The translations under genes and the position numbers were made by a program. From Ashinkailepas kermadecensis (Eukaryota > Arthropoda > Thecostraca > Neolepadidae), in NCBI GenBank assembly GCA_034440615.1, contig JAOTOM010004380.1:186001-250000 (forward strand): 64,000 nt of DNA, written 5' to 3'. Positions 160-24,700 of the stretch are shown in pieces. The first letter of the stretch is position 1. Every line of letters starts with the position of its first letter. The notes under the pieces are model-generated. The model was given only the letters and a program-made list of their open reading frames with translations, did not search any database and was not told where the DNA came from.

Positions 160-490
160 TTAATCAGGTGTCCAAGTCGTCACTCACACTCCTGGCTGGG
201 ATCTTGGTCAGGCGTTCAAATCGCCACTCACCCTCCTGGATGGGACCCTGGTCAAGTGCCCCGGTCGTCACTCACCCTCTGGGCTGGATCCTGGTCAGGT
301 GTCCAGTTCGCCACTCACCCTACCGGCTGGGTCCTGGCCAGGTGTCCAGGTCGCTACTCATCCTCCTGCCTGTGTTCTGGTCAGGTATTCAGTTAGCCAC
401 TCACCCTCCTGGCTGTGTCCAGCTCACGCGTCCAGGTCACCACTCACCCTCACGGCTGGGTCCTGGTCGTGCGCCCAGGTAGCCACTCAC
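160..490. repeat. minisatellite made of exon 23 donor junction copies
   Basis: Seven diverged units of about 44 bp each contain 'cactcaccctcctggctggg' or a near variant. On the minus strand this is the end of exon 23 plus its splice donor (CCAGGAGG|GTGAGTGG). The real junction at 484-510 is the last unit. Confidence 0.85.
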
Positions 491-715
491 CCTCCTGGTT
501 GGGTCCGCGGGCCACCGTCAGTCCGTCGGGGCAGCAGCCGTGCGGGAAGGTGTGGCAGCCGCAGCCGACGTGGTCGGCGCCCGCCGCCGGCGTGTACCGG
601 TCCGGGCAGCAGCCGTGCGCCGTGTACTGGCAGCCGCAGCCCTGCAGGTCCTCGCCGCGCGCCACCGTCTTGTTGTCCGGACAGCAGCCGAACGCCGAGT
701 ACTCGCAGCCGCAGC
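491..715 (-). CDS. Ppn: papilin exon 23: lagunin modules 8 to 10 (last exon in window)
   Basis: Encodes [38 protein letters not shown] and [19 protein letters not shown], joined by GCGC linkers. Acceptor GTGGCCAG|GCTGC, donor CAGGAGG|GTGAGT, phase 1 to 1, so the final Cys of module 10 lies in an exon beyond the window. The exon is strongly GC-rich compared with flanking introns. Confidence 0.95.
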
Positions 716-21700: not shown

Positions 21701-24700
21701 CACAGCTCGCCCACGGAGTGCTGTAGCACTGTTCACCACCACGCATCATGCACATGCTGCCAATGAGGCGCAGCCACAGTTCTCACCATGCACTGGCCGT
21801 CCACACAGACGTCGAGGCCCTCGCGCCCACAGCTGGTGCCGTCGATCACCTTCCTCTTGTGCCGGTAGTAGAACCGCTCGCCACGCGGCTGGCAGTTCAG
21901 TTCGCACTGGTTCGGCGCCTTGAGGTACGGAGTCCACCTGGGCACAGATGAGGTGACGTCAGAGGGGTCGCAGTGGCAGTGACGTCAGAAAGGTCGCAGT
22001 AGCGATGACGTCAGAAATGTCGCAGTGGCAGTGACGTCAAAGGGGTCGCAGTGACAGTGACGTCAGATATAAAGACATAAAAGACATAAAAGATCAGTGC
22101 AACTATGAGCCACAAGGGCCCTTCTTGGTTGCACTTGGTACACTGAACCAGTTGCCCACCAAATCTGTCAATCAACCCACCCTGGAATACAGAAAAACAA
22201 GCCCCCTATTCTTATAATGATTGTCTATGCCGTTTTTAAAGATGTTCAGTGTGTTGCTACTGACAATTGTTCCTGGAAGCTGGTTCCAGTGTTCTACTAC
22301 CCTGTTGGTGAAGAAAGACTGTCTTAACCTTGTCCTGCTGTGATTAGCTTTAATTTTGAATTGATGACCTCTAATTGCATCATTTCTGTTGAATTCAAAC
22401 ATTTCCCTTAGATATCCCTGCTCCTGACCATGAACAAATTTAAAAACCTCGATGAGATCTCCTCTCAGCCTTCTATATCTAAGCGAAAACATATTCAATT
22501 TCTTCAATCTTTCCTCATATGCCAGGTTGCCTATACCATTAACCATTTTTGTTGCCCTCTTTTGTACTCTCTTTAAAAGCCAACAATCTTTCTCATAACT
22601 AGGGGACCAAGCTTGGACACAGTATTCCAAATGTGGCCTGACATATGCACAGTAAAGCTTCCTGATGACCTCCTCACTTTTGTATGACACATTCCTCTGT
22701 ATCGCCCCAAGCATTCTTAGTGCCTTCTTCCTGGCTTCTTTGGTCTGTTCTGATGCCCCCAATTTTGTGTTCAAAATAACACCTAAGTCCTTCTCCTTCT
22801 GAGTCACAGATAGTACTTGGCCATCCATCAAGTATGGCGCCTTCATATGCTGCCTACCTACATGCATGACTTTGCACTTATCAAAATTAAACTTCATTTG
22901 CCATTTTTCGGACCACTTCACAAGCTCGTCTAAGTCGTTCTGCAGCAAAACCTGCTCATTGTGCCCTGTTATTGCCCTAAAGATCTTGAAATCATCCGCA
23001 AATTTCAAAACCTTACTGCTCAGGCCACATTCAATGCTATTCACAAATATAATGAACAACAGTGGCCCCAGTACCGACCCCTGAGGGACTCCACTAAGAA
23101 CATTTTGTCATGATGACTTTGTACCATTAAGCATCACTCTCTGCTGTCTATCTGAAAGCCACAACTCAATCCATTTTAGGATACTACCTGCAATGCCATG
23201 GACCTGAAGCTGCATCATTAACCGTTTATGGGGTACCTTGTCAAAGGCCTTACTAAAGTCAAGATATGCTACATCAACCTGATTTCCCTGATCAAATTGT
23301 TCTGTAGCAAAATTTAAAAAGTCCAAGAGATTTGTGAGACACGATCTCCCTTTTCTAAACCCATGTTGAGTATCTTGAATCAATCTGTTTCCTTCCAGAA
23401 AACTAACTATTCTATCTTTGATAATTGATTCGAGTACCTTGCAGACTAGGGATGTCAGGCTTACTGGCCTATAATTTTCAACTTTCCCTCTTTCTCCTTT
23501 CTTGAAAATAGGAACTACATTTGCCCTTTTCCAATCTGTTGGAATTTCATTTTGTGAAACTGATCTACAAAATATTATACTAAATGGAATTGCCAGTTCC
23601 TTTTCAGCTTCCCGCAATGCCCTAGCATAAATTCCATCAGGTCCTGCTGCCTTGTTTGGCTTTATTTTTCTGATATAATTGAAAACAACATCACTATCAA
23701 TGAAATCAACATTGTGTATCTGATCACCTGTCACTGAACTGTGGTTCACGGTTGGCAAATTTGTCACATCCTCCACTGTAAACACTGATTTAAACTGCTT
23801 GCTCAGCTCCTCAACCATCTCACCATCCTCACTCAATATAGTGCCATTTACTTCCAGTGGACCAATTGTGCTTGAAACTTTACTTAGCTTGTAGAAACTA
23901 AAGAACTTTTTACTGTCCCCATTACAGTTCCTAGCCAAATCCAATTCTTTTGCCCGCCTTGCTGCTCTGGTTTTCTGCTTCACAGCATCTCTAGCTTTTT
24001 GATACGACCTTAGATTTACGACATTTGAAGCTTCCTTAAATACTCTAAATGCATCTTTCTTAGCCTTAATTGATCTCCTCAAATCTGGTGTAAGCCATGC
24101 TGGCTTTCCTAGACTTCTTTTGCGCCTTTGCTTTTGGGGGACATGTCTAATCTGAATTTCCCTCAAGTAAGATTTGAACTTTTCCCACATTTCACAGGCA
24201 TTTAAATCAAAAAATTATTCTTCCCATTGTATGGCACTTAAAGCCTCTCTCATGGAGGCAAAGTCTGCCCTGTTAAAATTTGGAATCTTTGCCAAGTTAT
24301 CCTTGATTGTGCCTACTGATTTGCCAAGTTCCTACTGATTTCCTCACAAATCACCTTATCGAGCTCCAGTTGCTGAGAATGTGGCAAGGTTCCTGATCGA
24401 TACAAAGCTCCAATCCTCAGTTTATTGCTATTGCCTCTTCCCACAGCAACATCAAGCCAAATGGACTCCACAGACACATTTTTTACCCCATCTGCTACTT
24501 TCTGAGAACTGTATAAGCTATTCACATAGAGTATTACCACCCCCTTTCACTGCTGGACCCCTATTGCATGAAAACATATTGTATCCCTGGATCTCATAGT
24601 CCTGCAAGTTATCCCCAAAATATCCCTCACTGACCCATGCCTCAGTAATGCAAACAAAATCTGGTTTCTCCTCAGCAACATAACACTTGAACTCATCAAA

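Follow-up and report, generated by a model that had tools for sequence, protein, structure and literature searches.

The papilin gene of the barnacle Ashinkailepas kermadecensis carries minisatellite-like copies that span its exon-intron borders, at 5' as well as 3' borders, as confirmed here at nine exon edges. The gene lies on the minus strand of the window, i.e., the whole stretch of 64,000 nucleotides analyzed, which corresponds to contig positions 186001-250000 in a genome of 908 Mb. We propose, with a probability of roughly 0.6, that these arrays are mirages, minisatellites founded by tandem duplications spanning an exon-intron border through slippage or unequal exchange, with founding favored in and around GC-rich exons and its products filtered by selection.

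Among the 120 relatives listed, the top identity, 87% over 249 amino acids (aa), was to a papilin-like protein (partial sequence) of the barnacle Pollicipes pollicipes. Exons 6 to 23 were located through their splice motifs, with AG before and GT after the exon in 18/18, and exons 1 to 3 were judged by eye only. Joining exons 4 and 6 to 17 gave a single open frame of 622 aa, in which a family search recognized TSP1_ADAMTS, TSP_1, ADAMTS spacer, and cysteine-rich domains, and joining exons 19 to 23 gave a single open frame of 310 aa without a Pfam family match. As the joined frames are open, this check covers eight of the nine array-bearing edges, the donor of exon 23 having no onward join. Exon 18 (5021..7008, minus strand; TRF, splice-site check, and edge scan) was kept out of the joins. 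It is rich in SGD, arrays of 12- and 18-bp units lie within its coding sequence, and the repetitive, acidic product looks disordered. Its 12-bp coding array contains two 1-base deletions: at window positions 5641-5710, two 11-base units break the frame, and open reading frames stop near 5692/5702, reflecting either consensus errors or a real allele.

For each of the 36 edges of exons 6 to 23, a 30-mer centered on the edge was compared, ungapped, with sequence 18 to 400 bp away, and the best match was retained. Nine edges scored 23 to 30 of 30 (the acceptors of exons 7, 13, 14, 16, and 22 and the donors of exons 11, 14, 15, and 23), while 26 of the 36 scored 14 to 18; a score of at least 22 was reached by 0.35% of positions in 100-bp-block shuffled sequence. 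The first-pass annotation had named ten edges in at least nine introns, and the scan retains nine edges in eight introns, the exon 15 donor and exon 16 acceptor sharing one. The edge that fell away is the exon 6 donor (17/30, 18 within 8 bp), where the unit of the adjacent array (21340..21738, minus strand; edge scan and copy scan) does not include the exon edge. The exon 23 acceptor was also rejected as a case (20/30, 24 within 8 bp) and is read as the 25-aa coding repeat of that exon. That donors and acceptors are both affected was rightly seen (four and five of the nine edges, respectively), and so was the separate origin of the arrays: units at the nine edges measure 32 to 98 bp, with an exon part of 13 to 48 bases, and since they are unrelated to each other in length and sequence, the arrays must have arisen separately.

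All of the following features lie on the minus strand, the exons being placed by splice motifs and frame and the arrays, unless stated otherwise, by TRF and a copy scan. At the donor of exon 23 (491..715, donor at 490/491), a 43-bp array (164..506) includes 16 exon bases and has seven extra copies, six with GT. The acceptor of exon 22 (1097..1302, acceptor at 1302) lies in a 35-bp array (1289..1970) that takes in 14 to 21 exon bases, with 19 listed extra copies, 10 of them with AG; its TRF row stops at 1807, and the remainder comes from the copy scan. Two extra copies, both with AG, form the 68-bp array (10163..10346) at the acceptor of exon 16 (10060..10204), and five, all with GT, the 45-bp array (10716..10966) at the donor of exon 15 (10948..11139). 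Exon 14 (11820..11993) is bordered on both sides: its donor has two extra copies (11690..11860; edge scan, no TRF row) with 41 and 48 exon bases and GT in 1/2, and its acceptor a 67-bp duplication (11973..12120) whose one extra copy has AG and which is flanked by near-identical intron and exon stretches, GCAAGTGCG being common to both. Another 67-bp duplication (13283..13418), with 41 exon bases, covers the acceptor of exon 13 (13141..13320), its single copy having GG in place of AG. The 32-bp array at the donor of exon 11 (17212..17338) occupies 16430..17228 (left end by eye) and includes 17 exon bases; it comprises 22 extra copies at 26 to 30 of 30, all with GT, followed by two weak ones (20/30 with GT and 19/30 with GC). 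A diverged array (20884..21162) at the acceptor of exon 7 (20764..20887) has 13 exon bases and three extra copies (21 to 23 of 30), with AG in 3/3.

Altogether, GT or AG was kept in 51 of the 64 extra copies listed (19 to 30 of 30), in line with the expectation that the arrays hold many copied splice sites. In the four arrays tested (exon 22, 18/19 copies; exon 11, 22/24 copies; exons 23 and 15, all copies), the splice dinucleotide was kept at 0.56, 1.0, 0.86, and 1.0, compared to 0.71, 0.95, 0.65, and 0.85 for adjacent pairs. It was thus kept about as well as its neighbors, which indicates neither strong keeping nor strong loss. The G of AG in the exon 22 array is among the least-kept columns (0.61 versus a mean of 0.83), a hint before any correction for column number. 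Moreover, unit length is not a multiple of 3 at 8/9 edges, so that most copies, if used, would shift the frame. Most likely, the arrays have no effect on the protein, given these frame-shifting units and the read-through joined exons obtained with the exon-proximal sites. Exon ends appear unchanged and, judging from the open joined frame, splicing would be unchanged too; competition between copied splice sites is plausible.

It had further been suggested that array units overlap exon edges more often than array density would predict. By base coverage, this did not hold: introns lie in arrays for 24% and edges for 25% (30-mer test), and a circular shift of 17 arrays along the gene gave 9 edges observed versus 7.5 expected (P = 0.31), i.e., no excess of exon edges in arrays. 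The suggestion survives for the founding events, the edge being included by 9 of 17 intronic minisatellites versus 0.9 to 1.0 expected (0 of 20,000 simulations). The founder test is the right question because the units hold coding sequence and were therefore founded across the edge. Its count is biased toward excess since arrays missed by TRF were sought only at edges: the exon 14 donor array was added from the edge scan without a TRF row and with no like search away from edges, and without it the count is 8/16. Several array ends were set by eye, and the AT-rich arrays at 2809, 14534, 14727, and 20339, the 5-bp array at 15318, and the exon 18 coding arrays were left out. When founders were weighted by GC, using a model devised for this analysis, 2.1 to 3.2 edges were expected (P = 5e-5 to 0.0015); when they were confined to 150 or 75 bp of an edge, 2.7 (P = 0.0003) and 4.9 (P = 0.026) were expected, respectively. 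Randomizing whole arrays within their own intron, with at most 50 bases reaching into exons, gave an expectation of 2.4 (0 of 20,000), and the edge was included by 9/14 arrays at or near an edge, against one-third by a rough count (P = 0.017). Outside the arrays, the GC of introns falls from 0.56 in the first 25 bp beside exons to 0.44 at 200 to 400 bp, and array GC is 0.56 to 0.69 in 14/17 and 0.46 to 0.48 in the other three. The expectation thus climbs with GC or exon proximity (0.9, then 2.1 to 3.2, then 4.9), which supports founding near GC-rich exons. Much of the founder excess is closeness to such exons, and a modest edge-specific residue remains.

The pattern extends beyond these exons and this gene. 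In downstream papilin (L012), edge arrays occur at 4/13 tested edges; its donor at 3555 (23/30) is weak and was not counted, although it passes the bare threshold of 22 and would raise a mechanical count to 5/13. Reading by eye added two donor mirages, in L013 and L014. The strict papilin total is 13/49 tested edges, a count that leaves out exons 1 to 4 and most edges of L013 and L014. On the same contig, a 68-bp array carries the exon donor of another gene, which we take from reading to be a TOG-domain gene. Arrays cover 7/22 match ends of TSP1/ADAMTS-type exons (11 of 26 matches examined), not all independent because two locus pairs are paralogous; in the controls, they cover 1/6 splice edges of PKM and 0/20 match ends of VCP, a gene with a GC of 0.55 to 0.66 in five exons measured. 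Among myosin-head exons (PF00063), 5/79 match ends on five contigs lie in arrays, probably an underestimate, as a match may end before its exon does; at several more myosin loci, the array ends short of the edge. The myosin loci were hand-picked, chiefly among the highest listed: with the single-exon C2400 match set aside, 40 of 77 matches were taken. The start of L046 was left out of the edge count (Ns), as was the weak L077 donor (23/30). For TSP1, PKM, and myosin, whether an edge lies inside an array was judged from scores and sequence with no single fixed rule, and an array that came close to an edge without covering it was scored negative.

Hence, the impression that some process singles out papilin was not sustained, arrays being present also at TOG-like, TSP1, PKM, and myosin loci, and papilin remains richer than myosin (13/49 versus 5/79, Fisher P = 0.003). 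Genes differ, and in this small, unsystematic sample the secreted multidomain genes are the richest. With one 121-base query, no allelic contig was found; two paralog pairs differ in their arrays. Contig C3645 holds inverted duplicate TSP1 exons (L010, L032, L033, and L034) at ~57-61 kb on the plus strand and 149-153 kb on the minus strand, with border arrays that differ between the copies.

Within this set, the paralogous TSP1 exons L032 and L033, at 61 and 149 kb of the contig in opposite orientation, share 90% identity over 321 bp, flanks included, and one copy has an array while the other has none. At its acceptor, L033 bears a 65-bp array with TGACGTCAC at its bounds. In the array-free L032, this 9-bp repeat (14 with one mismatch) occurs in the intron and again in the exon, 65 bp apart, a layout of short direct repeats that would serve slippage or unequal exchange as a substrate. 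Because L032 may instead be what was left when an array collapsed, and not the ancestral state, the pair falls short of proving a gain at L033. By eye, the exon 14 acceptor has a similar layout, and the acceptor arrays of exons 13 and 16 have ~3 bp of homology or less at their ends.

Breakpoints were compared for 21/22 cases, the L004 acceptor being dropped since its motif was not located. About ten bases on each side were needed for detection, the largest extent over several spacings was used, and unit lengths were set by hand for PKM (21) and L030 (29), where the spacings found were 20 and 31. The exon parts of the units measured 10 to 57 bases, and the exon share of the unit ranged from 0.13 to 0.88 (mean, 0.50), compatible with a uniform distribution (Kolmogorov-Smirnov P = 0.59). 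No preferred breakpoint is thus visible in this small sample of 21 arrays, which argues against the first-pass view of a process acting at splice junctions as such; a splice-site-directed cut was accordingly dropped as the leading reading.

We propose a model in which a founding tandem duplication would happen to span an exon-intron border, most likely through slippage or unequal exchange involving an intronic and an exonic copy of a short direct repeat, in and around GC-rich exons, where such events would be favored. The exon-proximal copy would stay the working splice site and coding sequence, as suggested by the open frame and by continuity with papilin relatives, and the extra copies would become intron. 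Duplications wholly within structured exons would be purged by selection, border-spanning ones would be spared since the messenger RNA can stay the same, and in-frame duplications of exon 18 would persist because that part of the protein can vary in length; coding arrays such as those of exon 18 are indeed expected if exons themselves are the targets and structured ones are purged. Later copies would turn over as in any minisatellite. What counts against the slippage account is the residual excess after GC weighting and exon proximity, the 0/20 of the GC-rich VCP, and the little homology at exons 13 and 16.

That residual excess (P = 5e-5 to 0.0015 after GC weighting and 0.026 within 75 bp), together with the rate difference among genes, would be expected of a splice-site-directed or transcription-coupled process (R-loop, cotranscriptional break, or RNA-templated repair) that breaks exon-intron borders and leaves tandem copies. 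We nevertheless regard such a process as unlikely, given an exon share that shows no favored cut at the splice site or close to it, the like involvement of donors and acceptors, and other arrays lying some 10 to 60 bp off an edge. Placement could likewise owe little to founding if founders were random and an edge array, one copy of which is kept by purifying selection, shrank but never vanished and could reexpand, whereas pure intron arrays decayed and were lost. The exon-like intron stretches beside the edge in L032 and at the exon 14 acceptor fit such a persistence bias, but TRF percent match shows by eye no visible difference between edge and nonedge arrays, and we consider it improbable too.

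Selection for function, with duplicated splice sites serving alternative splicing or as decoys, agrees with the keeping of GT or AG in most copies; it appears very unlikely in view of the about average keeping of the dinucleotide in the four arrays tested, the frame shift brought by most units, and the poorly kept G in the exon 22 array. The two 1-base deletions in the exon 18 12-bp array suggest consensus errors in long arrays, so that copy numbers may be off, but to regard the arrays as a whole as assembly artifacts is hardly credible when copies are mutually diverged in most edge arrays, the pattern repeats on other contigs, and joined exons remain open. The mirage reading, i.e., border-spanning founding followed by selective filtering, is thus the one we retain.

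In amphioxus, the accessible parts of one report describe mirages as minisatellite-like duplications of intron-exon boundaries at both borders in globin genes and Adh3; splicing is undisturbed, haplotypes differ, Adh3 shows somatic instability, and a role in the gain of introns is proposed (PMC3087553). Those of another report add PGBD5 and troponin C (PMC3902484). As far as these excerpts go, the barnacle arrays resemble the amphioxus ones (Adh3, globins BflGb6 and BflGb9, troponin C, and PGBD5) in being border-spanning tandem duplications at 5' and 3' borders of several genes, with variable unit length and many copies with GT/AG (PMC3087553, PMC3902484). They differ in having units of ~20 to 98 bp and in being dense in one gene (papilin); reverse transcription-PCR and length instability were reported in amphioxus (PMC3087553). 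In human segmental duplications, internal tandem repeats at exon-intron boundaries, according to the part of the report available, share the minisatellite variation at these boundaries but are reported to alter the intron structure of recent paralogs, in many cases along with alternative transcripts, whereas barnacle exon ends look unchanged (PMC2812944). No barnacle, other crustacean, or arthropod case was found in the literature searched, most subscription papers being outside its scope, and the accessible portions of PMC8270832, PMC8917513, and PMC11331182 mention none; PMC7536079, PMC2206037, and PMC12783039, as far as accessible, concern different phenomena and were rejected as precedents. 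Since amphioxus mirages are in print and this literature holds no arthropod case, what we describe is a known kind of array in a new lineage, unusually dense in the papilin gene.

Tandem copies of splice borders have been proposed as a source of new introns and isoforms, and intron gain by tandem genomic duplication has reportedly been seen in potato (PMC4974935). The Rogers model of such gain, as cited in the accessible text of PMC3087553, involves, like the barnacle arrays, tandem copies of AG/GT-bearing sequence; it differs in that the barnacle arrays sit in introns that are presumably older than the arrays, with no new intron shown. In the literature searched, such copies had been described in lancelets and in human paralogs within segmental duplications. 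Border arrays in several gene families of a barnacle, at very different per-gene rates, thus provide a second, unrelated system, in which counting can test placement by mutation bias, persistence, or selection. More tentatively, barnacle germ lines may undergo a high-rate short tandem-duplication process with exons as hot targets, structured exons purging its products so that a halo of splice-border copies is left (about one-quarter of papilin edges), convergent with the lancelet. If so, spare splice sites would be constantly on offer for the gain of introns and isoforms, above all in secreted multidomain genes. Amphioxus is extreme in diversity, and so is one barnacle, Balanus improvisus, a possible tie to mirages that we mention only as a lead. 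In B. improvisus, coding diversity is ~5% according to the accessible part of PMC8270832.

Other repeats were noted in the window. A 19-bp array at 36982-37040 has a unit that starts at the donor GT of papilin exon 2, seemingly without exon bases (by eye), and a 2-kb compound array of AGGAGGCCCCAGGACGAAA-type units (30047-32073; TRF) lies in an apparent long 5' intron of papilin. On the minus strand, a long stretch at ~22100-25800 resembles, by reading, a non-LTR retrotransposon reverse transcriptase. Arrays of similar 26- to 29-bp units (GTCGCAGTGGCAGTGACGTCA) occur at 21953-22067 and 26135-26506, 4 kb apart, and may once have been a single array that the retrotransposon-like insertion between them divided. 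Dispersed tRNA-like SINE copies were seen by eye in both orientations at 4570-4700, 13430-13530, 14240-14400, 41200-41370, and 46320-46480; an Rfam tRNA match falls at 46405-46465, where ARAGORN reports none.
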